Positions 6,404 through 21,647 of a stretch of DNA of 44,310 nt are shown here, in pieces (within the stretch, counting starts at the first letter, position 1; each line of letters opens with the position of its first letter). The notes beneath the pieces are model-generated. The model ran no database searches, had not been told where the DNA came from, and saw only the letters and a program-made list of their open reading frames with translations. This DNA comes from Actinomycetota bacterium (lineage in GTDB: Bacteria; Actinomycetota; Acidimicrobiia; Acidimicrobiales; Acidimicrobilacustridaceae), in NCBI GenBank assembly GCA_009705225.1, contig WLCQ01000003.1:1-44310 (forward strand), written 5' to 3'. The translations under genes were made by a program, and so were the position numbers.

Positions 6404-7284
6404 GCTCCGGAATCCTGCTGCTCGTTGTACGGGTTGGTCCGGCGTTCACGGGTGCGAGTCATGAACTGCTGCAGCAGGCGTGCGATCGCGTAGCCGACGA
6501 TGAAGATCACGGCGCCGCCAACGGCGTCGAGCCAATAGTGGTTGGCGGTGATGATGACGACAATGATCGTGACCACCGGATAGAGCACGGCGAGGGTCTT
6601 CGCCCACCAGGAACGAACTCGCGGATAGAACACGGCGGTACCCCACATCGCCCACCCGCAATGTAAAGACGGCATGGCGGCGAATTGGTTCGAGATCGAT
6701 TTCATGCCTTCGGAGTTGAACGACCAGAAGGTGGGGTACTTCACAAGCGTGTCGATGAAGCCGTAATTGGCGCCGCCCATGGAATCGAGCAGGCGGGGCG
6801 GCATGAGCGGGAACGTGGCAAAACCGATCAGCCCGAGCAGGGTGCCGATGAGCAGAGTGCTGCGCCACAGCTGGTAGTCATCAGGGAATCGCCGATAGAG
6901 GAACACCAGCGCGAAGAGGGTGGCGGCCATATAGACCGATCCGTAGAAGTAGTTGGCGACAATGATGAGCGGGATGAAATTGAGTGCCCACTGCTGCATC
7001 TGATGTTCGTGCCACAGGCCGACCATCTGTTGCCAGTCGATGAGTCGCTCTGCATTGGCGTAGGCCCGGGCGGGATTGGCGGAGGAGAAGTTGCGAATGG
7101 TCTCGTACACAATGTCGACGACGACGACCAGCAGCACCTCGCGCCACCAGTAGAGCTTGGAACCATCGGCGAGTGGGCGCCCACGACGCCATCGGGACGC
7201 CCTAGCTGGCGCGATCGATGGTGACGCGCCGGGGCTCGGTGATCCGGACATGGTTGTACCGGATTCGGTTGAGAATTCGCTCAT
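6376..7284 (-). CDS. PAP2-superfamily membrane enzyme (inositolphosphotransferase-like)
   Basis: This is a polytopic membrane protein of 302 residues with about six hydrophobic helices. The active-site motifs PSLHCGW and NHYWLDAVGG match the C2 and C3 motifs of the PAP2/Aur1-like branch, where two histidines and an aspartate carry out phosphoryl transfer. Members dephosphorylate lipid phosphates or transfer phosphoinositol head groups on the outer face of the membrane. The start ATG overlaps the stop of the upstream sugar dehydrogenase (ATGA), so the two are translationally coupled. The C-terminus overlaps the convergent GT4 gene by 28 bases. The upstream gene of this pair faces the PHO-box region of pstC, so phosphate control is possible but inferred. 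Confidence 0.8.
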   Translation of the reverse strand: MSEFSTESGTTMSGSPSPGASPSIAPARASRWRRGRPLADGSKLYWWREVLLVVVVDIVYETIRNFSSANPARAYANAERLIDWQQMVGLWHEHQMQQWALNFIPLIIVANYFYGSVYMAATLFALVFLYRRFPDDYQLWRSTLLIGTLLGLIGFATFPLMPPRLLDSMGGANYGFIDTLVKYPTFWSFNSEGMKSISNQFAAMPSLHCGWAMWGTAVFYPRVRSWWAKTLAVLYPVVTIIVVIITANHYWLDAVGGAVIFIVGYAIARLLQQFMTRTRERRTNPYNEQQDSGAQTSVIASR

Positions 7285-8759
7285 GTCGCACCCATGATGA
7301 CCGAAAGTGTTCCTGAACTGGAGATGACGTACAACTCGCCCTGATCGTCCTGACCGAAACCGGTGAGAGTATTCGGATCAACCGGGGCCCCGAGCGGGTG
7401 ATCGTCGAGTACGACACTGTTGCGACTCAGCAGTCCCCGCAGCACCCCGGTGCAGCGATCGCCATAGACGTAGACGCCTACGAGCGCAGGGATCGCTGCT
7501 CCTCGGTACACGATTCCGCCGATCACGCCGCAGGAACCGTCGTCATGGTTATACGTGAGTATCGGATCGACCAACTTCCGTTCATCAACGGTGTTCGAAC
7601 TGCTGGCTTCGGCACTGGCAGCGTCGATGCTGTTCTCAACAGCCTGATCTCCGTCACGGGACGGCCATCCGAGATCGATCCCACTCCCGGAATCAGCGGC
7701 CACGCGGTTGAGTTCTTCGCGTGATTGGTGGCCCACATCGGTGATCCAGAGGTCGCCATTGCGTCGATCGAAGCTGAACCGCCAGGGATTTCGTAGTCCG
7801 ACAGCCCACACCTCGGCGGCACCACCGTCGAGGAGGAATGGGTTGTCGGGGGGAATTGAGTATTGGAGCGCTCCATCGGGGATGGCGGGATCGATACGTA
7901 GGATCTTGCCGAGCAGTGATTTCGGATCGGCAGCGTTTCCCGTGTCGGAAGGTCGGCCGCCATCGCCAACACCGATGTAGAGGTAGCCGTCGGGGCCGAG
8001 GGCCAACTGTCCGCCGTTGTGGTTCTTGGCATCGCTGTGGTCGATCGTGAGCAGAACGATCCGGCTTGCGGGGTCGATGCGGGGACGGGGGACTGGCCCC
8101 GGCGTGCTGGGCGATGATCTGGGAGGCGGCGCGGTCTCGGATGGGGTCGTGGTCGTCCGCGACCGTGAACTCGGGCGGGTCGTGGTGGTGGTGGTGGGGG
8201 CGCCCGAGAAGTCGAGTGGATCGGTGACGGCGTAGCTGGCCACCACAATGTCGCCGTTGGTGGCGGTGTGATCGACGTAGAGGGTGCGGCCATCGGAGGA
8301 GAACGCCAGCCCGAGCAGGCCGCGTTCGCCCTCGGAGGAGGTGATCGAGGAGAGATCAAGCACCGGGTCCGGGGTCAGCGTGTAGCCGTCGCGCACGACC
8401 TTGCCCGATGAGAGATCCCAATTCGTGTCCTTGGAGATCATCCGGATGCGACCCGCCCGCTCGGCGATCCAGAGCTGATTGCGCATCGGCCGATTGGTCA
8501 TGGCGATGGGCTCGTCGAGGCCGTCGGCAACTTCCTCGAGCACGATGTTGGCGTTGAAGGTCGTGGGCCCCGGACCGGGGTCGACCGGCGGCCGGGTGGT
8601 CGTGACGGCTATCTGCTCACTGTCCGTGGACGTCGAACTGCAGGCAGTGAGGATGATGGGACCGAGGAGCAGTGCGAGCCCGATGGAGCTTCGAAGTGCC
8701 CGAGTCGCTCGTGCCGCAGTGGCTCTGCGGCTGCTCGCTTCCGACTCCGGAGTTCTCAT
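7281..8759 (-). CDS. PQQ-dependent sugar dehydrogenase-like lipoprotein (GSDH family)
   Basis: This is a secreted six-bladed propeller of the glucose/sorbosone dehydrogenase family, about 492 residues. The N-terminus is basic with a hydrophobic core and a lipobox LTAC (lipidated Cys near residue 40), so it should sit on the outer face of the membrane. 'NHNGGQLALGPDGYLYIGVGD' spans the conserved histidine and calcium/PQQ-loop region. A low-complexity Pro/Thr/Ser/Arg insert (around TTTTTRPSSRSR) interrupts one blade. The ORF track begins at a TTG at 8792; the ATG at 8759 is preferred and a TAACCT about ten bases upstream could be a -10 of a near-leaderless mRNA. The gene is divergent from pstC and coupled to the PAP2 gene. 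Substrate unknown. Confidence 0.82.
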   Translation of the reverse strand: MRTPESEASSRRATAARATRALRSSIGLALLLGPIILTACSSTSTDSEQIAVTTTRPPVDPGPGPTTFNANIVLEEVADGLDEPIAMTNRPMRNQLWIAERAGRIRMISKDTNWDLSSGKVVRDGYTLTPDPVLDLSSITSSEGERGLLGLAFSSDGRTLYVDHTATNGDIVVASYAVTDPLDFSGAPTTTTTTRPSSRSRTTTTPSETAPPPRSSPSTPGPVPRPRIDPASRIVLLTIDHSDAKNHNGGQLALGPDGYLYIGVGDGGRPSDTGNAADPKSLLGKILRIDPAIPDGALQYSIPPDNPFLLDGGAAEVWAVGLRNPWRFSFDRRNGDLWITDVGHQSREELNRVAADSGSGIDLGWPSRDGDQAVENSIDAASAEASSSNTVDERKLVDPILTYNHDDGSCGVIGGIVYRGAAIPALVGVYVYGDRCTGVLRGLLSRNSVVLDDHPLGAPVDPNTLTGFGQDDQGELYVISSSGTLSVIMGAT

Positions 8760-8815: not shown

Positions 8816-8878
8816 CGTCACCTTCCGTTCACCTGAATGACAGACGTTCACCAACTGTTGGCTAAGGGTTGGTTGCCA
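8816..8878 (+). promoter_or_regulatory. Candidate PHO box upstream of pstC (11-nt phased repeats)
   Basis: Five 11-nt units with GTTCACC-like starts are visible: CGTCACC at 8816 and GTTCACC at 8827; then, after an 8-base gap, GTTCACC at 8846, GTTGGCT at 8857 and GTTGGTT at 8868. Exact 11-nt phasing of GTTCACC is how PhoP-binding direct-repeat units are arranged in Streptomyces (established). That a PhoP-type regulator acts here is inference, since no phoPR genes are in the window. The site lies between pstC and the divergent sugar dehydrogenase gene. A further GTTCACT occurs alone at 8895. No convincing -10 was identified for pstC. Confidence 0.6.
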
Positions 8879-8976: not shown

Positions 8977-9999
8977 GTGTCCGGAATCGATCTCGAAGAT
9001 CCCCCGACGTCTCCGTCGCCGATGCCCGGCTCCACCCGTACCAAGCGGGTGGTCACCGAGGTGCCCAGCGTTGTTGACAAACGCTTCAACGCCATCACCA
9101 TGGGTGCGGGCATTTCGGTGCTCGTGTTGCTCCTGCTGGTCGGTGCGTTCCTGTTCATCCAGAGCTCCAATGCGATCTCCGAGACCGGAGTCCTTCGGTT
9201 CCTGACCCGCACCGAATGGCGCACTGATGTGCAACCCCCAGCCATCGGCGTCATGGGACTACTCACCGGCACGGTGCTGGTTGCATTCGTCGCTGTGCTC
9301 TTCGCAGTGCCGCTCAGTGTGTTCTGTGCACTTGCCATCACGGAATACTCCACCGCTCGTCGGCGCAAGTGGCTCATCGGTGTTGTCGATCTGCTCGCTG
9401 CGGTGCCGAGTCTGCTGTTCGGCCTCTGGGGTTTCCTGTTCCTATCGGACAAGATGATTCCGATCTCGACCTGGCTCACCCAGAACCTCGGATTCATCCC
9501 CATCTTCAGCACGGAGCAGAACGCAAGCCTCACCGGTTCGATTTTCATCGCCGGTGTGGTGGTGGCCCTTATGGTGCTGCCGATCATCACCTCGGTCACC
9601 CGCGAGGTCTTCTCCCAGACCCCGCCGGGGGAGAAGGAGGCTGCCCTCGCCCTCGGCGGTACCCGCTGGGGCATGATCCGCGCTGTGGTTCTGCCCTATG
9701 GCCGCGGCGGCATCATCGGCGGCTCGATGCTCGGTCTGGGTCGTGCGCTCGGTGAGACCATCGCTGTGGCACTGCTGCTGCCGCAGGTGCCGCAGCAGAT
9801 CGGTGAGAGCATCCACATCCTGCAGAACGGTGGTGCAACAGTTTCGGGTTTCATCGCCAACCGTGCAGGAGCAGACGCGTTCACGACCTCGGGTCTCATG
9901 GCTGCCGGTCTCGTGCTGTTCATCATCACCCTGGCCACCAACATGATCGCTTCGGTGGTTGTGTCGAAGAGCCGTTCGGGTGCGGGGGTCGACCTGTGA
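8977..9999 (+). CDS. pstC: Phosphate ABC transporter permease PstC
   Basis: This is the PstC membrane subunit of the PstSCAB phosphate importer. About 340 residues: a cytoplasmic N-terminal tail of some 40 residues, one helix near 45-65, then the binding-protein-dependent permease domain. The loop 'EKEAALALGGTRWGMIR' is the EAA motif that contacts the ATPase, and LGRALGETIAVALLL is the conserved PstC/PstA region. The ORF-track start at 8869 lies inside the PHO-box region; the GTG at 8977, preceded by GGAGAA, gives a sensible N-terminus. An ATG at 8941 is possible but has no ribosome site. pstA begins at an overlapping GTGA. Confidence 0.93.
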   Translation: MSGIDLEDPPTSPSPMPGSTRTKRVVTEVPSVVDKRFNAITMGAGISVLVLLLLVGAFLFIQSSNAISETGVLRFLTRTEWRTDVQPPAIGVMGLLTGTVLVAFVAVLFAVPLSVFCALAITEYSTARRRKWLIGVVDLLAAVPSLLFGLWGFLFLSDKMIPISTWLTQNLGFIPIFSTEQNASLTGSIFIAGVVVALMVLPIITSVTREVFSQTPPGEKEAALALGGTRWGMIRAVVLPYGRGGIIGGSMLGLGRALGETIAVALLLPQVPQQIGESIHILQNGGATVSGFIANRAGADAFTTSGLMAAGLVLFIITLATNMIASVVVSKSRSGAGVDL

Positions 10000-11264
10000 G
10001 CACGGAAACCCTTTCCCCCGGTTCATCGGCTTCCAGTTCGTCGACCTCGAACGCCTCCCGTCCCACCCCACAGCGTCGGGCCCGTCGACCCCGCGAGTTC
10101 ACCAACTTCGACGTCTGGGTGCTGGTGGGTTCGATCATCAGCGCCTTGTGTCTCAACTGGCTGATCTTCTACCGCCTTACCGCCGGCGCCAGCCTGTTCG
10201 GTTTCCTGCTGTGTTCGTATTTCACGTTCCTCGCCATTTTCGGCGTCGTCACCGCCGATCGGATGGGTCGACTCGTCGCCACCGACAGGGTGATGACTGT
10301 GGTCGTCGTGAGTGCGGCGGCAATTGTGTTCGTGCCGCTCGTGCTGCTCATCGGGTACATCCTGCTCGAGGGCCTCAAGGCGCTCCGACCGAACTTCTTC
10401 ATCAGTGATCAGGAGGGCATCACCCCCGTGTTGCCCTCCACGTCAGGTGGTGCCTCACACGCCATCGTCGGTTCGATCGAGCAGGTCGGCCTCGCCCTGC
10501 TCTGGTCGTTGCCGCTTGCACTCGCAGCGGCAGTGTTCCTGAACGAGTCACGCAGCAAGTGGCGCCGGCCCGTGCGGATCTTCGTGGATGCCATGAGCGG
10601 ACTTCCGTCCATCGTCGCCGGTCTGTTCATCTTCGCCACGCTCATCCTGCCATTCGCCAAGAGCGGTAATCCGCTGTTCGGGTACAACGGCTTCATGGCC
10701 TCGTTGGCGCTTGCCATCACGATGCTTCCCACCATCACCCGCACTGTCGATGTGGTGCTACGTCTCGTTCCCGATGGTCTGCGTGAGGCATCGCTGGCCC
10801 TGGGCGCATCACGAGCCCGCACCGTCTTCTCCGTGGTGTTCCCCACCGCTCGAACCGGAATGACCACTGCGGTCGTGCTCGGTATTGCCCGTGCGGTGGG
10901 TGAGACCGCTCCGCTGCTGTTCACGGCCTTCGGCTACGACCTCATGAACTCAAACCCGTTCGCTGGTTCGCAGGAGAGCTTGCCGCTTTTTGTGTACCGC
11001 AACATTCGCAAGCCCGATATCGCGGCCATTGAGCGCGGTTTCGCCGGTGCCCTCGTGCTGCTGTTGCTCGTGGTTGCGCTGTTCGCGCTTGCCCGATTCA
11101 TCGGCCGCGATCGTTCGAAGCGTCGCGGTGCGCCCAAGGGTGGCGGTGCCGCAGTGCGGACGAATCCCGATGATCCCTTCAACTCCCCAACCAGCCCGAG
11201 CACCTCAGCAGATGCTGATGCGACGGCAACGGGGCAATCCGTCCAGGAGCCGATGACCTCATGA
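9996..11264 (+). CDS. pstA: Phosphate ABC transporter permease PstA
   Basis: This is the second membrane subunit of the Pst importer, 422 residues, longer than a typical PstA of about 280-300. A Ser/Thr-rich, basic N-terminal tail of some 40 residues is followed by two or three extra helices before the permease core. The EAA loop reads '[18 protein letters not shown]', followed by [12 protein letters not shown] hydrophilic C-terminal tail rich in Pro, Ser and Ala (about 50 residues) is unusual. The gene overlaps pstC and pstB by four bases on each side (GTGA and ATGA), so it is translated as part of the pstCABS operon. Confidence 0.93.
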
Positions 11265-12136
11265 CTGCAATCGCCGAAAGGGCAAACCCCATGTCGCAAA
11301 ATTCCACGCTGGTCACAGAACGACCTGCCATCGGTCGCGCCACCATCATCGGCGGCCCGCCCCCGGGTGCGGCAACGCTTGAGGCCCGCGGTGCCTGCGC
11401 ATGGTTCGGCGACCGTCTCGTGCTCGAAGGCGTCGATCTCGTGATGCCCGCAGGTCAGGTCACCGCACTCATCGGCCCATCGGGCTGCGGCAAGTCCACC
11501 TTCCTGCGTCTGCTCAACCGCATGCATGAACTCATCCCCGGCGCGGCACTCGACGGTGAGATCTTCCTCGACGGAACTGATATCTACGCCACCGGAACCC
11601 GGGCCCAGCAGGTGCGTATGCGCATCGGCATGGTCTTCCAGAAGCCGAACCCGTTCCCGGCGATGAGCATCCGCGAGAACGTGCTCGCCGGTCTCAAGCT
11701 TGCCCGCCTCAAGTGCGATGAGAAGGACGATCTCGTCGAGCAGTCACTCCTGCGCGCCGGCCTCTGGAAAGAGGTTCGTGACCGTCTTGACAGTGCCGGT
11801 GGTGCCCTGTCCGGCGGTCAGCAGCAGCGTCTGTGTATCGCTCGTTCGCTCGCTGTGCAGCCCAATGTGCTGCTGATGGATGAGCCTTGTTCAGCGCTCG
11901 ATCCCACCTCGACCCGTCGTGTCGAGGAGACCATCGACGAACTGCGTGGTGAGGTCACCGTTGTGATCGTCACCCACAACATGCAGCAGGCCAACCGCGT
12001 CTCGGATACCTGTGCGTTCTTCCTTGCGGCAGAGAACCAGCCCGGCGTTGTGGTCGAGCAGGGTCCGACCCGCAAGATGTTCGAGAACCCCGACGATCCC
12101 CGCACGCTCGACTACGTCGAAGGCCGCTTCGGCTGA
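11261..12136 (+). CDS. pstB: Phosphate ABC transporter ATP-binding protein PstB
   Basis: This cytoplasmic ATPase powers phosphate import through PstC/PstA. It has Walker [11 protein letters not shown]-loop '[10 protein letters not shown]' (the N-P-F-P form is typical of PstB), signature LSGGQQQR, Walker [14 protein letters not shown] and the H-loop VTHNMQQA. At 291 residues it is about 35 longer than E. coli PstB because of an N-terminal extension before the core. The start ATG overlaps the pstA stop (ATGA), and its own stop shares a base with the pstS ATG (TGATG). An internal ATG eleven codons in is a possible alternative start. Confidence 0.95.
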
Positions 12137-13653
12137 TGTCTCGCTCACGACGCCGCTCCAGTTTCCAGCGAATCGTCGGTGCATTCGTTGCGTTCGTTGT
12201 TGCTGCTCTGGCTGCTGTCGGTGTGGCGCCATCCGCAAGCGCGGCACCGGCACGCATCAATGGTCAGGGCTCGTCCTATGTGGCGCTCGCCATGCAGCAG
12301 TGGGTGGCCGACGCCCAGACCTCGGGCCTGCAGGTCAACTATCTACCCACCGGTTCGCCGGGTGGTCTCACATCCTTCGGTCAGTCGCTCGCCGACTTCG
12401 CCGGCACCGAAGCTGAGTTCAGCGCTCTCTCCACACAGGGGATCGGTGACACTCGTGGCTATCAGTACGTGCCGTCGGTCGCCGGCGCTGTTGCCGTTAT
12501 GTACAACGTGCAGGATGCAGCGGGTCGCAAGGTGGACTACCTGCATCTGAGCCGCCGAACCATCGCCCGGATCTTCACCGGTGACATCACCACATGGAGC
12601 GACCCCGCGATCACCTCTGACAACAAGGGATTGGTACTTCCGAACCAGCCCATCAACGTCGTGTACCGCGGTGGCCAATCGGGAACAACGGGTCTGTTCT
12701 ATGACTTCGTGGCCAATGTCGCCCCTGATGTGTTCGGCCCGTGGGCAGCGCGCAACAGCTTCCCCACAGCGGTTCGAATCATCCAGCTGGACAGCTCCCC
12801 GAGCTTCGTGCCGAAGTCCCAGGCATTCCAAGGTTCCGACCAGATTGCCCAGTTCGTCGGCAGTGGACAGGGCCTGTGGAGTATCGGGTACGACGAGTTC
12901 GGCTATGCCAAGACCTACGACGTCCCCGCAGCTTGGGTCGAGAACGCGGCTGGCGAGTCGGTGCTGCCGTATGCAGAGAACATCTCAGCGGCCCTCGAGA
13001 CGGCCACGCTGCGACCCGATCTCTCGCAGGAACTCTCTGGTGTGTACAACTCCACCAACCCGATCGCCTATCCGATTTCGGCATACAGCTACATCGTGAC
13101 CCAGTGTGCCGAGTCCGCTGATCGACCGACCTGTCGGGGGGCCTACCCGAACGCAGGAATCACCGAGACGCTCACCAAGTGGCTCCGCTACATCGCGTGC
13201 GAGGGACAGGTGAACATGGCCCGGATCGGTTATTCGCCGCTTCCCCCGAACCTCTCGCAGGAGGTGGCCAACTCGATTGCTCGGTTGACCGGTCAGGCCC
13301 CGGAGCAACTGACCCAGGCCAACTGTGCGAACCCCAGGTTCGGTGGTTCTGTTGGCGACGGAGGAACCCCACCTGTCGATCCGATCAAGAACGTCGATGT
13401 CATCGGTGGTGAAAATGCCGTAGGTTCGGAGTTCGACGCCGCCGGTGGTGCAACCACCGGCAACGGCGGAACGACCTCGAGTGGTGGTGGCAGTACCGAC
13501 TGGCGCCGGGCAACTCCGGTCGCCTACGTCGGGCCGTCAATTGCGTCATCGAACGGCATTGCCGTTCTCTTTCTCCTGCTCGTGATGGCTGTCCCGGTCA
13601 TCGTGGGCGCAGTTCTCGCCCGCCGTCGACGGAGTGATTCCTCGCTCGGGTGA
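12136..13653 (+). CDS. pstS: Membrane-anchored phosphate-binding protein PstS
   Basis: This is a PstS-type phosphate-binding protein of 505 residues. A Sec signal peptide (hydrophobic core about residues 13-33, cleavage after SASA) precedes a PBP-like domain with GQGSSYV at its start, FTGDITTW in the middle and the phosphate-loop motif QSGTTG (S182-G186). Unlike ordinary PstS, it continues through a Gly/Thr/Ser-rich linker to a C-terminal helix (about 470-495) and a basic RRRR tail, so it is anchored by its C-terminus rather than by a lipobox. No LPxTG or LAxTG-like sorting motif is visible. It is the last gene of the overlapping pstCABS unit; a 178-base gap with PHO-like repeats follows. Confidence 0.9.
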   Translation: MSRSRRRSSFQRIVGAFVAFVVAALAAVGVAPSASAAPARINGQGSSYVALAMQQWVADAQTSGLQVNYLPTGSPGGLTSFGQSLADFAGTEAEFSALSTQGIGDTRGYQYVPSVAGAVAVMYNVQDAAGRKVDYLHLSRRTIARIFTGDITTWSDPAITSDNKGLVLPNQPINVVYRGGQSGTTGLFYDFVANVAPDVFGPWAARNSFPTAVRIIQLDSSPSFVPKSQAFQGSDQIAQFVGSGQGLWSIGYDEFGYAKTYDVPAAWVENAAGESVLPYAENISAALETATLRPDLSQELSGVYNSTNPIAYPISAYSYIVTQCAESADRPTCRGAYPNAGITETLTKWLRYIACEGQVNMARIGYSPLPPNLSQEVANSIARLTGQAPEQLTQANCANPRFGGSVGDGGTPPVDPIKNVDVIGGENAVGSEFDAAGGATTGNGGTTSSGGGSTDWRRATPVAYVGPSIASSNGIAVLFLLLVMAVPVIVGAVLARRRRSDSSLG

Positions 13654-13682: not shown

Positions 13683-13737
13683 GTTGGCCTGTTCTTCACC
13701 TTGTGTTCCATCAGCCTCGGTCGATGGTTCACCTTGA
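13683..13737 (+). promoter_or_regulatory. Candidate PHO box before the second PstS-like operon
   Basis: Five consecutive 11-nt units run from 13683 to 13737: starts are GTTGGCC (13683), CTTCACC (13694), GTTCCAT (13705), CTCGGTC (13716, weak) and GTTCACC (13727). The phase is exact across the whole array. The unit types GTTCACC and GTTGGC are the same two seen before pstC. The array ends three bases before a good -10 (TAGATA, 13741-13746), the geometry expected of PHO-activated promoters. The ORF-track start of the next gene lies inside this array, which is one reason to choose a downstream start. Confidence 0.62.
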
Positions 13738-13831: not shown

Positions 13832-15202
13832 GTGAAGAGTTCTCTTCTCAAGCGCAGTCTCATCGCCGGTGCAGTGGTTGCCACTTCCGTGGCCACTTTC
13901 ATCCCGACGATCTCCGCTGCGTCAGCCGCAACAGTCATTGCCGTCGCCGGCTCCGACACGACCGAAAACGTCATGAAGTCGATCATGGAGCAGGTCAGCA
14001 CCGTCGACGTGCCCACCTATAACGTTCCGGTGTACTCGTTGAACCCGTTCACTGTTCCCGCCGACGACTTCTGCCCCTCGGTGGTCTACTCCCCGCAGGG
14101 CACGACCGGGCTCACTGCTCCCAACCAGGTCGCCCCGAATGGTTCCGGCGCCGGCCGTAACGCACTCCGCGATTTCGTTGCGAGTAGCAAGCGCTACACC
14201 GCTGGCGCCGAAGTGCTCAGCAGCTCGGTTGAGGCCTATGCAGTAGCAACTCCGGTGAAGGGCTGCATTGATATCGCCCGCTCGTCGGCCTACAGCTCAG
14301 GCTCGCCCGCTGCCACCAAGGGCCAGTTCTACGCCTTTGCCCTTGACGCCGTGAGTTGGGCGTCCCCCAGCTCGAAGGCTCCGTCCACGCTTTCCATCAG
14401 CGACCTGCAGAAGATCTACAACTGCACCTACACCAACTGGAACCAGGTTCCGGGTGGTTCGGATGGGCAGATCCAGCGCTACCTCCCGCAGGCTGCTTCC
14501 GGTACCCGCGCCTACTTCCTCAGTGATGTGCTGATGGGAGCGGTCACCGACTTCACCGCCAAGACCAACTGCCCGGCAGTCAAGATCCTTGACAAGAACG
14601 GCCTCGAATTCGAGGAGAATCGGGGCGACAGGATCCCCGATGCGGACCTCGAGACTGCGATCCTTCCGTACTCGGCCGGCCAGTGGGCCTATCAGGCCAA
14701 CAACGCCGCCAACCCCTCGATCGACCAGCGCAAGTCATCCACTGGTGTCGTGACCGCCATCAAGGGGATCAACAACTCCGCCTTCGGCAAGACCGGTTCC
14801 GGAGACAACGTGCTGAACAACACCGGTCACGTTGCCTACAACGACATCGATGGCCGCTACCAGCTCAATGATTCTGGCTGGGCCAACGTTGACACCACCG
14901 CTGATGCGGCTGGCTACCCGATCACCGACAGCAACACCGTGCAGGAGTCGGGCAAGTCAAAGACAGCCGTCGATTTCCCGGGTGTACGTCTTGTCTACAA
15001 CGTGCTCCACACCGATTCCCCGAGCTACAGCACCGCCCGCGACCTCGTCGGCTTCAACAACATCGATAGCGGCGCTAAGAGCACCCTTTGCAGCGGTGGT
15101 TTCAAAACCACCATCTCGACCTTCGGGTTCTCACCGCTCACCTCAACAGCGAACGGTGCTTCGAATCTCGCCGGTTCCAGCTGCCGTCGCTACCTGGCCT
15201 AA
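13832..15202 (+). CDS. Second PstS-like periplasmic substrate-binding protein
   Basis: This is a secreted PBP-like protein of about 456 residues. The GTG at 13832 follows GAAAGGA at a good distance and is directly followed by a signal peptide (KSSLLKRSLIAGAV... ending near AASA); the ORF-track start at 13703 would put the promoter inside the gene. 'VAGSDTT' near the mature N-terminus and AASGTRAYF resemble the phosphate loops of PstS-like proteins, and 'LQKIYNCTYTNWNQV' matches the IFTGDITTW region. Several cysteines suggest disulfides. There is no C-terminal anchor, so it should be soluble or cell-wall retained. It is a distant paralogue of the anchored PstS upstream and may be the high-affinity or secreted form. 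Confidence 0.8.
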   Translation: MKSSLLKRSLIAGAVVATSVATFIPTISAASAATVIAVAGSDTTENVMKSIMEQVSTVDVPTYNVPVYSLNPFTVPADDFCPSVVYSPQGTTGLTAPNQVAPNGSGAGRNALRDFVASSKRYTAGAEVLSSSVEAYAVATPVKGCIDIARSSAYSSGSPAATKGQFYAFALDAVSWASPSSKAPSTLSISDLQKIYNCTYTNWNQVPGGSDGQIQRYLPQAASGTRAYFLSDVLMGAVTDFTAKTNCPAVKILDKNGLEFEENRGDRIPDADLETAILPYSAGQWAYQANNAANPSIDQRKSSTGVVTAIKGINNSAFGKTGSGDNVLNNTGHVAYNDIDGRYQLNDSGWANVDTTADAAGYPITDSNTVQESGKSKTAVDFPGVRLVYNVLHTDSPSYSTARDLVGFNNIDSGAKSTLCSGGFKTTISTFGFSPLTSTANGASNLAGSSCRRYLA

Positions 15203-15223
15203 TCAGCAATTACTAGGTCCCAG

Positions 15224-15254
15224 GTCGGGGTTGGCCGCAGTGGCCAACCCCGAC
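15224..15254. terminator. Strong stem-loop between PstS-like and four-Cys genes
   Basis: A perfect inverted repeat has arms CGGGGTTGGCC (15226-15236) and GGCCAACCCCG (15242-15252) around the loop GCAGT, and extends by two more pairs on the outside. It starts 22 bases after the PstS-like stop and ends about 24 bases before the next start codon. There is no U-run, so it is more likely an attenuator, partial terminator or mRNA-stabilising hairpin that lets the first gene be made in excess. Confidence 0.65.
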
Positions 15255-15277
15255 TCGGATCAATCGAAAGGCTCTTG

Positions 15278-15946
15278 ATGACCTCGAATTCCTCATGGCT
15301 CGAACCCAAGGTTTTGGTTCCGTCCGGTGTCGCAGTCGTGGCAGTGGCGCTTCTCATCCTGGTTCTTGTCTTCGGGGGTAACTCGGGCGACTCGGCTGGG
15401 AGCGCCTCTTCAGTCAGCTCGACCTCATCCCCAGTCGTCGACTCGGTAACGGATCCGGTGAGCGGTGCCTCAGGTCCGGTGGAACCCGGCGCGGTGCCTG
15501 CATCGGTTCCGTCGGGTCCGTACACCACGCCGACGATGCCGGTACAGGTGGACGCTCCTCCGGTTGATGGAGCGGTGGATGGCGAGGCCATCACGGTTCA
15601 TGGGAGTCCGGAGCCCGGGTCGAAGCTGTACGGGGTTGAAGCGAGACTCTGCCGGGGAGATGTGGCAGTCGTCGATGACGGCATGTTCACCCCCACCCTC
15701 GGTGGAGTCTGTATCGCCAAGCCCCTTTCCGAGATTTCGGATTCGAAGGTTGCCGTCGTAGGGACCGAGCCGTTCGAAGGCCTGGACATCACGTTCAGGG
15801 TCGGTGTCGGTTCCACCACGTTCAAGACCCAGTACGACGGTCCTTCGACCATCACATGCGGGCCGAGCTCGCCATGTCAGATCGTTCTCAAACTGCAGTA
15901 TCCGAAGGGATTCGGCTTCAAGGGAATCCCTGTCACCTACCGGTGA
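15278..15946 (+). CDS. Membrane-anchored protein with one four-cysteine domain
   Basis: No known family is recognised. The 222-residue protein has one N-terminal helix (about 14-33, uncleaved-anchor type), a Ser/Pro/Val-rich spacer to about residue 100, and a C-terminal globular domain of about 105 residues. That domain has cysteines at 125, 145, 194 and 200 and the motifs RLC, FTPTLGGVC, VGVGSTTFKTQYDG and ITCG. The same pattern occurs twice in the next protein and once, diverged, in the one after. The ATG at 15278 is preferred over the TTG at 15275 because AAAGG lies seven bases upstream. Topology would place the domain outside the cell. Position in the phosphate locus suggests a surface partner of the PstS proteins. 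Confidence 0.75.
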   Translation: MTSNSSWLEPKVLVPSGVAVVAVALLILVLVFGGNSGDSAGSASSVSSTSSPVVDSVTDPVSGASGPVEPGAVPASVPSGPYTTPTMPVQVDAPPVDGAVDGEAITVHGSPEPGSKLYGVEARLCRGDVAVVDDGMFTPTLGGVCIAKPLSEISDSKVAVVGTEPFEGLDITFRVGVGSTTFKTQYDGPSTITCGPSSPCQIVLKLQYPKGFGFKGIPVTYR

Positions 15947-15976
15947 TCGCGGAACTCCCCGCTGATGCTTCGCAGT

Positions 15977-16009
15977 GTTCACTCGCAGTACCGGAACTGT
16001 TCTCCTCGG
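15977..16009 (+). promoter_or_regulatory. Weak third PHO-like repeat set
   Basis: Three 11-nt phased units beginning GTTCACT (15977), GTACCGG (15988) and GTTCTCC (15999) lie just after the four-Cys anchored gene. The outer two fit the GTTCACC type; the middle one does not. It could be an internal promoter element for the FN3 gene or chance. The third unit is also one arm of a hairpin. Confidence 0.25.
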
Positions 16010-16080
16010 GAGAACTGCCCGGAAACCTTCATTCGTCACACTTCAACGGTATTCATCCACTGACTGGGCGCCAGGCGCCC
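15999..16080. other. Two stem-loops in the leader of the FN3/four-Cys gene
   Basis: The first is GTTCTCC-TCG-GGAGAAC (15999-16015, seven pairs). The second is GGGCGCC-A-GGCGCCC (16066-16080), a near-perfect palindrome ending 18 bases before the start codon. The 152-base gap between the two genes thus holds two hairpins and no gene. They may adjust expression of the very large secreted protein downstream. No known riboswitch pattern was recognised. Confidence 0.5.
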
Positions 16081-16098
16081 GAGAGAGGTCACACTCTG

Positions 16099-18531
16099 AT
16101 GATTCGCTCCTTCCGATCCCGCCTTGTGGCGGTGTCAACGGGGGTGCTGCTCACCGCAGCAACTCTCGGGACACTCGCCCCAGTGGCCCAAGCGGAGACT
16201 GTGTCGGGCAATGTGCCGGCCACGATCACTGCCTCACCGACGACCGGGCTCGTCTCGGGCTCCACCGTCACGGTCTCAGCCACCGCCGACCTCAACTGGA
16301 ACATCTATTCGCTGCGGGCTCGCCTGTGTAAGAGCTCGGCGATGATCGACAATGCAGGTGACTTCTCGCCCACGCTTGGCGGCAACTGCATCTCCGGCCC
16401 GTTGGCTGCGAACACCGACAGCGACGTCACCGTGAATACATCTGTCGGAGCTCGTAGCTCGGCGACGCTGGACTTCAATGTTGGCGCCGGGTCCACGACG
16501 TTTGCCACGCAATACGACGGCAACACGACCATTGCTTGCGGTGTCACCTCGACCACAGGTTGCAAGCTCGTCGTTGAAATGTCGGCGAATAACCTCAGTG
16601 GCCGCGTGATCTACAAGTCGTTCCCGCTCACCTACGCCCTGCCGAACGCCCCCACCGGCGTATCAGCAGTTTGGGGTAACGCCAAGGCTGTCGTTTCCTG
16701 GACCGCTTCCGCTGCCCAGACCGGTCTGCCGGCGGTGACCTCCTACACCGTGACTTCCTCGCCCGGTGGCTTCACCTGCACGACGGCGAGCACCAGCTGC
16801 GAGGTTTCGGGACTCACGAACGGAACGCCCTATACCTTCAGCGTGACCGGAACGAGCACTCTCGGTACCTCCGCTGATTCCACTGCCACCTCAGCTGTCA
16901 CGCCCTCGAGCTCGGCCTACGTTGTCTCGTCGACACCGACGGCCGGTCTCTCCTCGGGAACCACTGTCGCCCAGACGGTCACCATGAGCACCGGGCAGAA
17001 CCTCTATTCGGTGCGCACCCGTCTCTGTAAGGCCTCGGCCACCATCAGCAACGCCGGTGATTTCTCGCCGACGCTCGGGGGCAACTGTGTCTCCACGCCG
17101 CTTGCCAGCAACACCGACAGCGACGTCACTGTGACCACATCAGCCGGCAGTCGTGGTTCGGCCTCGCTGAGCTTCAAGGTCGGCGCCGGCACGAAGACGT
17201 TTGCCACCCAGTACGACGGCAACTCCACCATCGCCTGCGGCACCACATTCGCCAATCGTGAATCCTGCAAGCTCGTGACGGAGATCAGCTACACCACCGC
17301 CCTTGGCGTCGCGCGTGTGGTTTACGAGAGCACGGCGATCGCCTTTGCGACGGTTCCCGCCGCCCCTGGTGCTCCCACCGTGGCCATCGGCGCCACTGGT
17401 GGCTCGGCAACTGCATCCTGGACCGCTCCCGCCACTGGTGGCTCAGCGATCACGGGCTATCAGGTGACCGCCACTGGCGGCGTGAGCCCCATTGTCTTCA
17501 CCGTCGGCGCTTCGACACTGTCCCAGGCGTTCGCCGGCTTGTCGAAGACCACCACCTACACATTCACGGTGAAGGCAGTGAACGGCGTGGGTTCCAGCCT
17601 CGCCTCTGCCGGTACCTCGAAGCTCGCTGCCGCTGTTCCGGCAAAGCCGGCAACGATCACGGTGGGCTCGACCGGCAACGGATCCATCACTGTGAACTAC
17701 ACAGCCCCGGCCACCACCGTGCCTGGCGCCCCCGTGACCGGCTACTTGGTGCAGGCGTTTGCCCCCCTTGCCACTACTGCGGCCGACACCTGCAACAACG
17801 GTGACAGCATCTTGACCTGCACGCTCACCGGGCTCACGAACGGCGTGAAGTACGAGATCCGGGTCTCCGCGAAGAACGTGGTCGGCACCGGCGTCAGCTA
17901 CAACAAGGTCAAGAACGTGATCCCCGCCACGACACCGGGCAAGCCGTCGATCACGACGGTCACTGGTGGCAATGGTCAGGTCACCGTGGCCTGGTCGGCA
18001 CCGCTTTCCAACGGCGGCTCGGCAGTCACCGGGTACACGGTTCAGGCCTTCAACGCCGCTGGCACCGACGCCATCGACGGCAAGACCTGCACGCCAACCG
18101 CCGCGACCGGCACCAACTGCATCGTCGCCGGCCTCACCAATGGCACCGCCTACACGTTCAAGGTGACTGCGGCGAACGCCAAGGGCAGCGGTTCGGCCTC
18201 TGATGCTTCGGCAGCAGCGACTCCGGCAACGGTACCTTCGGCTCCGGGCTCCCCGCAGGCCACCGCCAACTCCCTCAAGTCCGTCACGATCAGCTGGAGC
18301 GCCCCGAGCAGCAACGGCTCGGCGATTACCGGCTACACCGTGCAGGCCTACACATGGAACGGCAGCGTCGCCACCATCGTGACGCCGAAGAAGTGCACCA
18401 CCACCTCCGCCACGACCTGCAATATCGGGGGTCTTGTCGCTGGAACCCAGTACAAGTTCAACATCACTGCTACCAACGCCAAGGGGACCAGCTCCGCTGC
18501 GACCACTGCGGCTGTGACTGCGAAGAACTAA
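16099..18531 (+). CDS. Secreted repeat protein: two four-Cys domains plus five FN3 domains
   Basis: This 810-residue secreted protein starts at the ATG at 16099, with a GAGAGAGG ribosome site and a clear signal peptide cleaved near AQA (residue 32); the ORF-track extension to 15856 overlaps the previous gene and is rejected. Order: four-Cys domain (C77, C97, C147, C155), FN3, second four-Cys domain (C310, C330, C380, C390), then four tandem FN3 domains to the end. The two halves repeat at 233 residues (699 bases). Four FN3 domains carry a Cys pair just before the LTNGTxYTF-type motif, probably disulfides. No catalytic domain and no C-terminal anchor are visible. It is probably structural, adhesive or a receptor-like surface protein. 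Confidence 0.8.
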   Translation: MIRSFRSRLVAVSTGVLLTAATLGTLAPVAQAETVSGNVPATITASPTTGLVSGSTVTVSATADLNWNIYSLRARLCKSSAMIDNAGDFSPTLGGNCISGPLAANTDSDVTVNTSVGARSSATLDFNVGAGSTTFATQYDGNTTIACGVTSTTGCKLVVEMSANNLSGRVIYKSFPLTYALPNAPTGVSAVWGNAKAVVSWTASAAQTGLPAVTSYTVTSSPGGFTCTTASTSCEVSGLTNGTPYTFSVTGTSTLGTSADSTATSAVTPSSSAYVVSSTPTAGLSSGTTVAQTVTMSTGQNLYSVRTRLCKASATISNAGDFSPTLGGNCVSTPLASNTDSDVTVTTSAGSRGSASLSFKVGAGTKTFATQYDGNSTIACGTTFANRESCKLVTEISYTTALGVARVVYESTAIAFATVPAAPGAPTVAIGATGGSATASWTAPATGGSAITGYQVTATGGVSPIVFTVGASTLSQAFAGLSKTTTYTFTVKAVNGVGSSLASAGTSKLAAAVPAKPATITVGSTGNGSITVNYTAPATTVPGAPVTGYLVQAFAPLATTAADTCNNGDSILTCTLTGLTNGVKYEIRVSAKNVVGTGVSYNKVKNVIPATTPGKPSITTVTGGNGQVTVAWSAPLSNGGSAVTGYTVQAFNAAGTDAIDGKTCTPTAATGTNCIVAGLTNGTAYTFKVTAANAKGSGSASDASAAATPATVPSAPGSPQATANSLKSVTISWSAPSSNGSAITGYTVQAYTWNGSVATIVTPKKCTTTSATTCNIGGLVAGTQYKFNITATNAKGTSSAATTAAVTAKN
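16318..17345 (+). repeat. Internal 699-bp duplication of four-Cys + FN3 unit
   Basis: The four-Cys domain coding sequence is present twice in direct orientation. For example, the codons for DFSPTLGGNC start at 16360 and again at 17059, exactly 699 bases apart, and all four Cys codons are shifted by about 233 residues. Synonymous differences are scattered, so the duplication is not recent. Confidence 0.7.
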
Positions 18532-18540
18532 AGGAAATTG

Positions 18541-20616
18541 ATGAAACACCGCTCCCTCAAACGAGCGCTCGCAGTGGTGAGTGTCGCAGCTATGGCTGCG
18601 GCACTCACCGCGTTCGGCGTGGCAACTCCTTCCGAAGCTTTGGAATCGGCAACGGCCCCCTGGACCGTGTCGGTGACGCCGAACACCAGCATCACCGATG
18701 GGCAGCTCGTGTCAATCAATCTCCAGACCACGACTGCCCATCGCATCTATGAAGCGAATGCCCAGATCTGCAGACTCGGCGTTGACTACCAGCCGAGTGA
18801 CGGCGATCGTCCGGCGAAGGATTTCGACGCTGGGGATCTCAACTGCCCGGCAATTCCGATCTCATCGAGCTCCGATGTGCAGACCGGCGATGCCAACCTT
18901 TACGGACCGGCCACCCAGCCGGGAGGTTCATCGTTCTCGATGTACGTCGGTAGCGGAGTTGTGGAGTGGCCGGCCGTTTCGACCGGTCGAGCGCAGCGTC
19001 TGACCTGCGACTTCGAGAATCCCTGTGCCCTCGTGGTGGAGGTGTACGGGTCAGTCGCTCCCGGTGTCGCCCGGTGGATCCCGTATGTTCAGACGCTGTC
19101 GTACCGGGTCGACGACCCGGTGGCCGGCTGCGGCGGTCCCGCTGACGGGGTGCTGAACACCGCGGCACCAGAGCGGGTCACTGATCTGTGGATCAACTGG
19201 ACCCTCGATCAGTGCCGCCTCCCCGGCGCGCAGGCAGGCGCAGTATCGCGAACCAGTTTCTCTGATGAGTCCGATGCCATGAATGGATTTTCGAGTGGTG
19301 CACTCGATGTCGGCTACAGCGCAGTCGGTTATGACGCCGGACCTGCGCTCGGTCGAGGATCGCGAACCGAACCCCTCGAAGCCCGACCGTCGACAGCCGT
19401 GCCACTCGCAGTGAACGCCACCGTCGTGGCCGTGGGTAACGGTCGGCGCGGCCCGAACAGCCGAAAGATCCCGTTCACCGATGTACGTGTGACTCGCAGT
19501 CAGCTCGCCCGGATGTTCACCGGGGGTCCTCTCGAGTTCCTCGAATATGAGCGGCAGTCGTTTGCCGATCTCAACCCTCAGTTCGACGAGGCCAGCGTGT
19601 TCATCTCTGCGTCGATTCAGGTTGGTGCGTTCGCTCCCGCAGACGCGTCGTCCTGGTTCCTCACCAGCTTCCTGAAGGAAACGCAACCCGACGAATGGAA
19701 GGTTCCGGACACGAATAAATTCGGGCCCGAACGTGGCCTTACCCGAGGATCCTCAATCGCCTTCGGCATCGCAAACCCCTCGTTCAACGGTGCTGTGGAC
19801 ATGTTCACCGGAAACTCAGTACTCGTGAAGACCCTGCGGAGCCAGAACACCAATGACTTCGGTGGCATCTGGGTGCTCACCGATCTTGCAACTGCAAATC
19901 ATCTCGGTCTGTCGGTCGCCAGTATCGAGAACGACAATGGGGTTTTCGTTGCTCCCACCCCTGAATCGATGAACGCTGCGGTCGCCACGATGAAGCCCAC
20001 CGATGACGGTCGGCTGATGCCTGATCCGGCTGCATCCGTTGACAAAGATGCTGTGCAGCCCTACCCGCTCACATTCGTGGACTACGCAATCGCTCCCACC
20101 TCGAAGCTTGTCGATTCGACGTGCAAGGGACGTACTGCGTCCCAGGCGTTGCTCGGGACCTGGCTGAATTACGCGGTGAGCGAGGGCCAGAGCAAGCTCC
20201 CTGTTGGATACGCACCTCTCACTGATGACCTTCGAGCCACCGCAAGCGAGGCCATTGCCAAGATCGGTTCGGAGACTCCGGACTGTTTCGTCGAGGGAGA
20301 CCCGTTGCCTGTCCTCGCACCACCGCAGGGCGGCGGATCCGGAGCTGGAGGTGGCGGCGGTATCCGCAATCCCGGAATCAATCCGACAGCCACTGGCGGT
20401 GCTGACTCGCCGAACCCTGCATCTGGAACTGTGAAACCCGAAGTTCTTGCCGCAGAGGTCCCCGAGTTCACAGCACGAACTGCGGCCAGCGCTGCAGCCG
20501 CCTTCGGGGGCATGATCCTCGTGTTCGGGCTCTTGTCGCTGATGGCCATGGCCACGACCGGTCGACTGCCCACGATGAGCTCCCTCCGATCCCGTCTGGG
20601 AGGTCTGGGACGATGA
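18541..20616 (+). CDS. Fusion of four-Cys domain and degenerate PstS-like domain, C-terminally anchored
   Basis: This 691-residue protein has a signal peptide ending near SEALES, a diverged four-Cys domain (C77, C102, C156, C162; VGSG replaces VGAG), a PstS-like domain from about 190 to 580, a Gly-rich linker, one helix (about 640-665) and a basic tail. PstS likeness: 'TRSQLARMFTGG' matches TIARIFTGD of the operon PstS, and 'TWLNYAVSEGQSKLPVGYAPL' matches its KWLRYIACEGQ region. The phosphate-loop SGTTG is replaced by PADASSW (about 366-372), so phosphate binding is probably altered or lost. ATG at 18541 follows AAAGGA by five bases, nine bases after the FN3 gene; its stop overlaps the next gene (ATGA). 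Confidence 0.78.
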   Translation: MKHRSLKRALAVVSVAAMAAALTAFGVATPSEALESATAPWTVSVTPNTSITDGQLVSINLQTTTAHRIYEANAQICRLGVDYQPSDGDRPAKDFDAGDLNCPAIPISSSSDVQTGDANLYGPATQPGGSSFSMYVGSGVVEWPAVSTGRAQRLTCDFENPCALVVEVYGSVAPGVARWIPYVQTLSYRVDDPVAGCGGPADGVLNTAAPERVTDLWINWTLDQCRLPGAQAGAVSRTSFSDESDAMNGFSSGALDVGYSAVGYDAGPALGRGSRTEPLEARPSTAVPLAVNATVVAVGNGRRGPNSRKIPFTDVRVTRSQLARMFTGGPLEFLEYERQSFADLNPQFDEASVFISASIQVGAFAPADASSWFLTSFLKETQPDEWKVPDTNKFGPERGLTRGSSIAFGIANPSFNGAVDMFTGNSVLVKTLRSQNTNDFGGIWVLTDLATANHLGLSVASIENDNGVFVAPTPESMNAAVATMKPTDDGRLMPDPAASVDKDAVQPYPLTFVDYAIAPTSKLVDSTCKGRTASQALLGTWLNYAVSEGQSKLPVGYAPLTDDLRATASEAIAKIGSETPDCFVEGDPLPVLAPPQGGGSGAGGGGGIRNPGINPTATGGADSPNPASGTVKPEVLAAEVPEFTARTAASAAAAFGGMILVFGLLSLMAMATTGRLPTMSSLRSRLGGLGR

Positions 20617-21647
20617 CAATCGACGAACAGGTCTCGATGGTCGGTTCCATCGATGTCCTCCCACCCCATCGGGAGTTTGCTCCCAGGCCCGAAGCCACAC
20701 CGATGCATCGACCGGGGGCACCCTCCGGCAAACTCCTGCTCCTGTGGGCCGCTGTGCTCGTGCTCGTGGTCGCAGTAGTTCTCATTGCTGTGGAGCCGAT
20801 GTTCCAACAGCGTGAGCAGGGTTTGCTACTCAGCGACTACCGGTCTTCGATCGACAAGGCGGCCAACCAGGCCACCGGTCTCGGCGGCGTCGAAGTATCG
20901 ACCACCGCGCCTGAGTTCGGTTCGCCCGTGGGCATCATGGAGATCGAGCCAATCGGACTCCAGCAGGTCATTGTCGAAGGTGCTTCGGCTCCGATCATGC
21001 AGAACGGTCCCGGCCATGTGCCCGGCACTGCGGCACCGGGTCAGCCCGGTAACAGCGTTGTCGTTGGTAGGTCGGCGCTGTTCGGCGCACCGTTCGCCGA
21101 CCTCTCGAAACTTGCCGTCGACGACCTCATCGCAGTCACCACCACCCAAGGTCAGGTCGTCTATCGAGTTGCCGAAGCAGCATCGGTGCAGCTGAGCAAT
21201 GCCAAGCCGGAGAGCAAGCCGGCCTTGTCGGGAACTGCTGCTACCCCGGGTGAGTACAAACCGATCCTGGAGTCCGGTCGCATCTCGATCGAGTCGCTCT
21301 ACGGATCGACCACCGACGATCGACTCACGCTCGTCACCTCTGCCAGTGCCTTCCCGCTCAATTCGGCTGAAGCACGTGTGGTCATTGCCGTCATGGCGGG
21401 CAAGCCCTATGCGCCGACGCCGCAGAACGGTCGAACGAACCGCCAGACGGGTACCACCAGCGATACCTCACACTGGCCCTTTGCCCTGCTTGCGGCGCTC
21501 TGCCTCGCTGGGGCGATCGTCGGTGCGGTCCTGCTCTACCGGCGCTCCAGCGCGCGCGTGGCATATCTGCTCACGGTGCCACCGCTCTTGGTGTTTGCGG
21601 TGCTCGCCTCGGAGACACTCAGCCAGCTGCTGCCAGCCTGGTTCTGA
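20613..21647 (+). CDS. Sortase-fold membrane protein without catalytic His and Cys
   Basis: This 344-residue protein has a cytoplasmic N-terminus, one helix (about 40-62), an extracellular sortase-like barrel (about 100-265) and two C-terminal helices. The barrel shows typical sortase landmarks: 'GPGHVPGTAAPGQPGN', then the strand where GHR should occur, 'GAPFADL', 'YRV', TLVT and an Arg at 255. The catalytic His is replaced (VVVGRS, R153) and the catalytic Cys is Ser (TLVTS, S243). Transpeptidation as in known sortases is therefore not expected. The gene overlaps the PstS-like fusion by four bases. It may bind, orient or help assemble the C-terminally anchored surface proteins of this locus; that role is inference. 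Confidence 0.78.
   Translation: MTIDEQVSMVGSIDVLPPHREFAPRPEATPMHRPGAPSGKLLLLWAAVLVLVVAVVLIAVEPMFQQREQGLLLSDYRSSIDKAANQATGLGGVEVSTTAPEFGSPVGIMEIEPIGLQQVIVEGASAPIMQNGPGHVPGTAAPGQPGNSVVVGRSALFGAPFADLSKLAVDDLIAVTTTQGQVVYRVAEAASVQLSNAKPESKPALSGTAATPGEYKPILESGRISIESLYGSTTDDRLTLVTSASAFPLNSAEARVVIAVMAGKPYAPTPQNGRTNRQTGTTSDTSHWPFALLAALCLAGAIVGAVLLYRRSSARVAYLLTVPPLLVFAVLASETLSQLLPAWF

Follow-up and report, generated by a model that had tools for sequence, protein, structure and literature searches.

A phosphate-import locus of Actinomycetota with membrane-tethered binding proteins and a sortase-fold protein lacking the catalytic cysteine

The analysis of a 44,310-bp window, one contig of a 2.59-Mb draft genome, has shown that five genes following pstC, pstA, pstB and pstS belong to an Actinomycetota-wide locus (hereafter, the module), which combines genes of a Pst importer with those of additional binding proteins, surface proteins and a sortase-fold protein without the catalytic cysteine (the pseudosortase). 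The preliminary description of this stretch had picked out a real arrangement, which is larger than first described, while its interpretation is partly supported. We propose, at a probability of roughly one half, that the module may encode a phosphate-regulated, envelope-tethered phosphate-acquisition assembly, in which the pseudosortase would be a non-catalytic docking part.

Results

Gene content of the window locus

Gene calling identified pstC, pstA, pstB, pstS1 and five further genes, all on the plus strand, with gaps of -4, -4, -1, 178, 75, 152, 9 and -4 bp, in this order, across the nine-gene run. The second block of five same-strand genes after pstCAB-pstS, as preliminarily described, is confirmed; the short or absent gaps ascribed to it are seen at 75, 9 and -4 bp, but not at 178 and 152 bp.

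Homologs of PstC, PstA, PstB and PstS, the components of the Pst importer, are all present. pstC (8977–9999) and pstA (9996–11264) encode module-type permeases matching TIGR02138 (247 bits) and TIGR00974 (217 bits), respectively, above the cut-offs; the former shows 43–68% identity to other module pstC, and the latter falls in the module PstA clade described below. The matches to TIGR00972 for the ATPase gene pstB (11261–12136; 328 bits, cut-off 343) and to TIGR00975 (167 bits vs. 205) are strong, yet fall under the equivalog cut-offs. pstS1 (12136–13653) encodes a phosphate-binding protein (PF12849, E=2.8e-30; E=7e-26 to solved PstS) with a C-terminal transmembrane (TM) anchor; since this protein is also membrane-anchored, the module begins at pstC and not at position 13832.

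The first gene of the second block, pstS2 (13832–15202), encodes a secreted soluble PstS-like protein (PF12849, E=1.9e-13), whose profile matches solved phosphate-binding proteins. It is followed by the gene of a small protein (15278–15946) with an N-terminal TM segment and a single four-Cys domain, identified by the four-Cys alignment and having no Pfam match; its ortholog (L077, 687–1352) lies inside the pst locus of genome G001. The product of the next gene (16099–18531) is secreted and combines five FN3 stretches (PF00041) with a pair of four-Cys domains (domain alignment). The fourth product, here called Big (18541–20616), has one four-Cys domain, a PstS-fold domain (residues 199–582 in the AlphaFold model) and a C-terminal TM anchor, so that four four-Cys domains are encoded in the window. 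The last gene (20613–21647) encodes the pseudosortase, a membrane protein with an N-terminal TM segment and stalk, a sortase barrel and two C-terminal TM helices.

Elsewhere, the same genome carries a canonical pst locus (contig C68) and a sortase in which the catalytic triad is complete (contig C176). Judged by sequence, the window locus is therefore a second Pst system in this bacterium.

Conservation and linkage to pst genes

To characterize linkage, loci were selected by PstA similarity alone, as the best 80 from a GTDB-wide collection. Big was found in 62 of these 80 loci, in 59 by gene calling and in three by TBLASTN (L169, weakly, L170 and L171). All 62 are among the 68 loci of the module type; the remaining six (L180, L187, L194, L207, L233 and L235) are cut by a contig edge and end beside the pst genes. 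Big is absent from the other 12 of the 80, which are canonical or unassigned. Five loci (L170, L171, L217, L223 and L239) were examined by TBLASTN and not by gene calls. Some loci are near-duplicates (L120/L212 and L162/L177), so the counts are not fully independent. L171 and L217 are metagenome-assembled contigs titled 'Bifidobacterium breve'; the genes of L171 are Acidimicrobiia-like, and the label looks wrong.

A search with the Big profile yielded strong matches (E<1e-90) in 14 of 148 genomes of the same order and matches with E<1e-60 in 10 of 396 genomes of the phylum. Wherever the contig was long enough, pstCAB/pstS, PstS2 and a sortase-fold gene were found beside Big. The module is carried by Streptomyces, Kitasatospora, Amycolatopsis, Actinoplanes, Nocardioides, Microbacteriaceae, Catenulispora and Acidimicrobiia; plasmid records contained one partial match. 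In the PstA tree (82 rows) all module rows form a single clade (support 99/84) with canonical PstA outside; L161, the only row in the clade labeled as canonical, carries a weak match to Big and a sortase match. Linkage to pst, chosen beforehand as the point at which the preliminary interpretation could fail, therefore holds, the arrangement recurring in dozens of genomes.

PHO-box-like repeats

The PHO box of the Streptomyces type consists of GTTCACC units at 11-bp spacing. We scored candidate sites with such units. The top-scoring site in all 44,310 bp precedes pstC and starts at 8816 (P=0.001 against 1000 Markov sequences of equal length); it comprises direct repeats of GTTCACC-type units with 11-bp spacing at 8816–8833 and 8846–8863 on the plus strand, and the close relative L164 has a site of equal score. 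Among 49 loci, 21 have repeats with P<0.05 ahead of the module pstC; the corresponding figures are 7 of 8 for canonical pstS (positive control), and one of 20 for the sortase gene and one of 13 for canonical pstC (negative controls). OmpR-type response regulators adjoin the locus in L077, L116 and L124. The upstream region holding the repeats in the window is shared with a divergent gene (7281–8543) for a secreted protein resembling glucose/sorbosone dehydrogenases.

A possible PHO-type triple repeat (plus strand, 13683–13711, P=0.011; three units, 11-bp spacing) precedes pstS2. Because of this repeat, the five genes, preliminarily placed in one operon, could form a second, co-regulated unit, that is, they may be transcribed separately from a PHO-type site of their own.

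Binding proteins

Phosphate ligands, numbered as in E. coli PstS, are mostly retained in the alignment of PstS1: Ser38 in 80, Arg135 in 78, Ser139 in 78 and Gly140 in all 82 of the 82 sequences. The equivalent of Asp56 is Glu in 57 of the 82, including the window protein, vs. Asp in 15 of 15 canonical PstS, so the ligand or the affinity of PstS1 may differ. As judged by eye, PstS2 has Ser at this position. A C-terminal TM-like segment is present in 76 of 82 PstS1 and 71 of 81 Big proteins, but in none of 77 PstS2 and 14 canonical PstS. Four Nocardioides loci (L191, 16528–18117, and also L189, L190 and L196) encode a longer PstS2 of about 520 aa, apparently fused to an Ig-like surface domain.

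The PstS profile matches the second half of Big (Pfam/NCBIfam). In the AlphaFold model, residues 199–582 superimpose on M. tuberculosis PstS-1 with Z of 27.8 and rmsd of 3.3 over 313 aligned residues at 19% identity; the mean pLDDT of the entire Big model is just 67.8. The S-G-T phosphate loop is changed or lost where the alignment resolves it (about 20 of 81 sequences). For this reason Big is not an obvious phosphate binder and may be a pseudo-binding protein.

These replacements would fit a Pst-derived importer or sensor for a ligand other than free orthophosphate, for example, a phosphate ester, a wall polymer carrying phosphate or some different oxyanion; the surface proteins would then be its specific receptors. 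The canonical pst locus in the same genome, next to which a plain second importer looks redundant, fits this explanation as well. On the other hand, the remaining ligands of PstS1 are nearly invariant and PHO-like repeats lie upstream; we consider this main rival to our proposal unlikely, though worth keeping in mind.

Surface proteins and sorting signals

The four-Cys/FN3 proteins are specific to the branch of the window, and other branches have different surface proteins. The four-Cys domain could not be accepted as a true neocarzinostatin member, as the matches were sub-threshold (NF040680, 22 bits vs. 86, for window Big; PF00960, 18.5 vs. 25, for an accessory protein of L124) and the PDB profile search gave no meaningful match.

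Accessory genes of other module loci encode WxL/WxLIP, LPxTG/LAxTG or PEP-CTERM-like proteins. LxxTG sorting signals occur on 15 of 117 accessory proteins inside the locus vs. 9 of 681 outside (p=6e-8), WxLIP_PGBD was found in all but one of the 17 accessory proteins that were aligned (16 with E<=0.01), and the WxL domain in six of 32 selected proteins. Window proteins had no WxL or WxLIP match in Pfam, its accessory proteins carry no recognizable sorting signal, and window PstS1 and Big have a C-terminal TM segment and tail and no LxxTG motif. Proteins with WxL and WxLIP_PGBD domains are encoded beside pst in L185 (17223–19898) and the related L188, L211 and L219; a published survey of WxL proteins (PMC9772566) deals chiefly with Firmicutes/Bacilli, and Actinobacteria are not mentioned in it.

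An exosortase subfamily is present in seven of the 148 genomes of the order, in six of them beside the module, and proteins neighboring the exosortase have VPEAP...LLP-TM-RRR tails. The subfamily matches no named exosortase model at the cut-off, only the family signature TIGR04178. The window and its genome contain no exosortase. Small PEP-CTERM-like proteins (VPEAP/VPEIP...LLP-TM-RRR) are encoded near the exosortase gene in L124 (11189–11803), L075 (11606–12190), L082 (696–1283) and L120 (3446–4237); two of these, as well as window Big, show weak neocarzinostatin-family matches.

Along with the PHO-box-like repeats, the sortase-substrate, WxL/WxLIP and PEP-CTERM-like genes within the loci of other genomes lend sequence support to the earlier idea of a phosphate-regulated surface assembly. 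The diversity of the accessory surface proteins, often with WxLIP/WxL domains and sorting signals, could even indicate that the module, under phosphate regulation, chiefly serves the wall or adhesion (WxL/WxLIP, LPxTG, FN3), and that its PstS-like parts are sensors that do not aid transport. This is improbable, as pstC and pstA are always retained alongside and pstA forms a clade of its own.

The pseudosortase

The sortase fold of the last protein is supported by PF04203 (E=1.2e-15) and by the AlphaFold model (pLDDT 86.8), which matches sortases from the PDB (best E=5.9e-11) and features a long N-terminal helix, the sortase barrel and two C-terminal helices. At the NCBIfam cut-offs the window protein belongs to no sortase class (class E model NF033747, 68 bits vs. 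160).

We aligned the module sortases with six intact control sortases from related genomes, all six of which have the catalytic His, Cys and Arg. The catalytic Cys is not retained in any of 66 module sortases, being replaced by Ala (40), Ser (18), Gly (5) or Thr (3). The His is retained in five of 67, whereas 59 have Arg at this position; the catalytic Arg is kept by eight of 67. The loss of catalytic residues preliminarily noted for the window protein is thereby borne out: Cys is replaced by Ser (TLVTS) and His by Arg (GR and not GH).

In S. coelicolor SrtE1, Tyr229 of the β3/β4 loop is the class E residue for LAxTG (PMC5148588). Its equivalent in the 67 module sortases is Arg in 39, Val in nine, Leu in nine and Tyr in two, and the following residue is Arg in 51. 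As the class E Tyr and, mostly, the catalytic Arg are lost, the pseudosortase may not bind sorting signals as sortases normally do. At the same time, Gly, Gln and Glu positions are invariant in 40 aligned module sortases and the reading frames are open across the phylum. Judging by these alignments, the pseudosortase is not a randomly decayed protein but a conserved pseudoenzyme, the former active site of which is rich in arginine.

It is very improbable that the protein is still an enzyme, with an altered active site, or a partner of a second, intact sortase. The arginines at the His site and in the β3/β4 loop would be compatible with the former and the intact sortase elsewhere in the genome with the latter, but the nucleophile site is mostly occupied by Ala, and neither Ala nor Gly can replace Cys. 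An ordinary pst operon lying by chance beside unrelated surface genes, with the sortase a decaying pseudogene, would account for the lost catalytic residues and the low class E score, but is contradicted by the open frames, the invariant positions, the phylum-wide conservation and the constant pst neighborhood, and we dismiss it.

In two Streptomyces loci, L205 (6979–7419) and L229 (6982–7617), an additional sortase-domain protein with the catalytic Cys (TCGG) is encoded just upstream of pstC, so that one and the same locus has an intact sortase on one side and a dead one on the other.

Module loci with an intact sortase

Two loci from two families of the order, L125 (1329–4776) and L126 (6799–10180), contain within the module an intact class E-like sortase with His, Cys and Arg, together with an exosortase. 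Here, Big ends in LAFTG or LAYTG followed by a TM segment and a basic tail, and the tail of PstS1 has an LSFTG-like motif in L125 and LxxTG in L126. In the pseudosortase loci an LxxTG tail was found on one of 82 PstS1 and two of 81 Big proteins. As the simplest reading, we hypothesize, with caution because there are just two active loci, that anchoring of the binding proteins was once the task of the sortase, and that its catalysis disappeared jointly with their sorting signals; what remains would be partners held by TM segments and a sortase that no longer catalyzes.

Discussion

Relation to known systems

The module shares with the canonical PstSCAB system the PstC, PstA, PstB and PstS families, PHO-type upstream repeats and the mostly retained ligands of PstS1. 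It differs in having its own PstA clade, a TM-anchored PstS1, the additional PstS2 and Big, the pseudosortase and surface proteins; pstB is often the last gene, after the sortase, and no phoU was seen in the module of the window.

In the Isd system of Staphylococcus, which takes up heme, receptors anchored by sortase B relay their ligand to an ABC importer. The module resembles this system in logic without being a member: surface receptors for a limiting nutrient, a membrane binding protein, an ABC importer and a sortase-fold protein are co-encoded. Unlike Isd, it has no NEAT domains, concerns a different nutrient and has a catalytically dead sortase, and the relay itself is only a putative one.

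Among the sortase classes, class E (SrtE1, PMC5148588; PDB 5cuw and 5go6) is the nearest sequence family, and the barrel is shared, but the pseudosortase has lost Cys, His and usually Arg, mostly has Arg for the substrate Tyr, and is encoded within a pst locus. Its C-terminal hydrophobic segments are similar to those of the intact acidimicrobial control sortases. The Firmicutes WxL/Csc clusters (PMC9772566, PMC10599100) likewise group WxL, WxLIP_PGBD (DUF916-type) and LPxTG proteins; the module, in contrast, occurs in Actinomycetota beside pst, has WxL types in a part of the loci, that of the window not among them, and 'small WxL' was not identified. Adjacency and tails similarly link the module to exosortase/PEP-CTERM systems (PF09721, TIGR04178) in other genomes of the order, but not in that of the window.

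In the libraries searched and the open-access literature we found no paper or family model describing the module locus or a family of sortase pseudoenzymes, which is no proof of novelty. The same literature yielded no account of inactive sortases, of a sortase with PstS or PhoP in Streptomyces, or of WxL with phosphate in Actinobacteria.

Proposed function

According to the preferred reading, the module would encode a second, specialized Pst importer with envelope-tethered binding proteins and, alongside it, a surface apparatus. Phosphate limitation would act through control of the PhoP/RegX3 type, as the PHO-box-like repeats suggest, and lead to production of PstCAB, membrane-anchored PstS1, free PstS2, membrane-anchored Big and beta-domain proteins attached to the wall or the membrane. 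PstS2 might collect phosphate in or outside the wall and pass it to PstS1 at PstCA. The beta-domain proteins, together with Big, would keep the assembly in place across the thick wall. The pseudosortase probably derives from a class E-like sortase of the membrane, for which the same module proteins are the likely original substrates; it would now be a docking or assembly factor binding anchors or partners without cutting them.

At somewhat less than even odds, we further suggest that the pseudosortase is the first recognized conserved family of sortase pseudoenzymes, in which the Arg-lined former active site has taken on a new non-catalytic role, for example, binding of an anion or of the anchors of the Pst-binding proteins, and so connects the importer with the cell wall across the phylum.

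Phosphate is often growth-limiting for soil and freshwater Actinomycetota, and, to our knowledge, the way in which nutrients pass the thick walls of these bacteria to reach importers in the membrane is poorly understood. The question becomes testable with a Pst variant that is spread over the phylum and combines tethered binding proteins and wall proteins with a dead sortase. In the module the sortase fold may, for the first time, be seen in a conserved role without catalysis, no other case having been found in the searchable literature, and sister loci of the L125/L126 type provide a natural before-and-after comparison for the conversion of an anchoring enzyme into a structural part.
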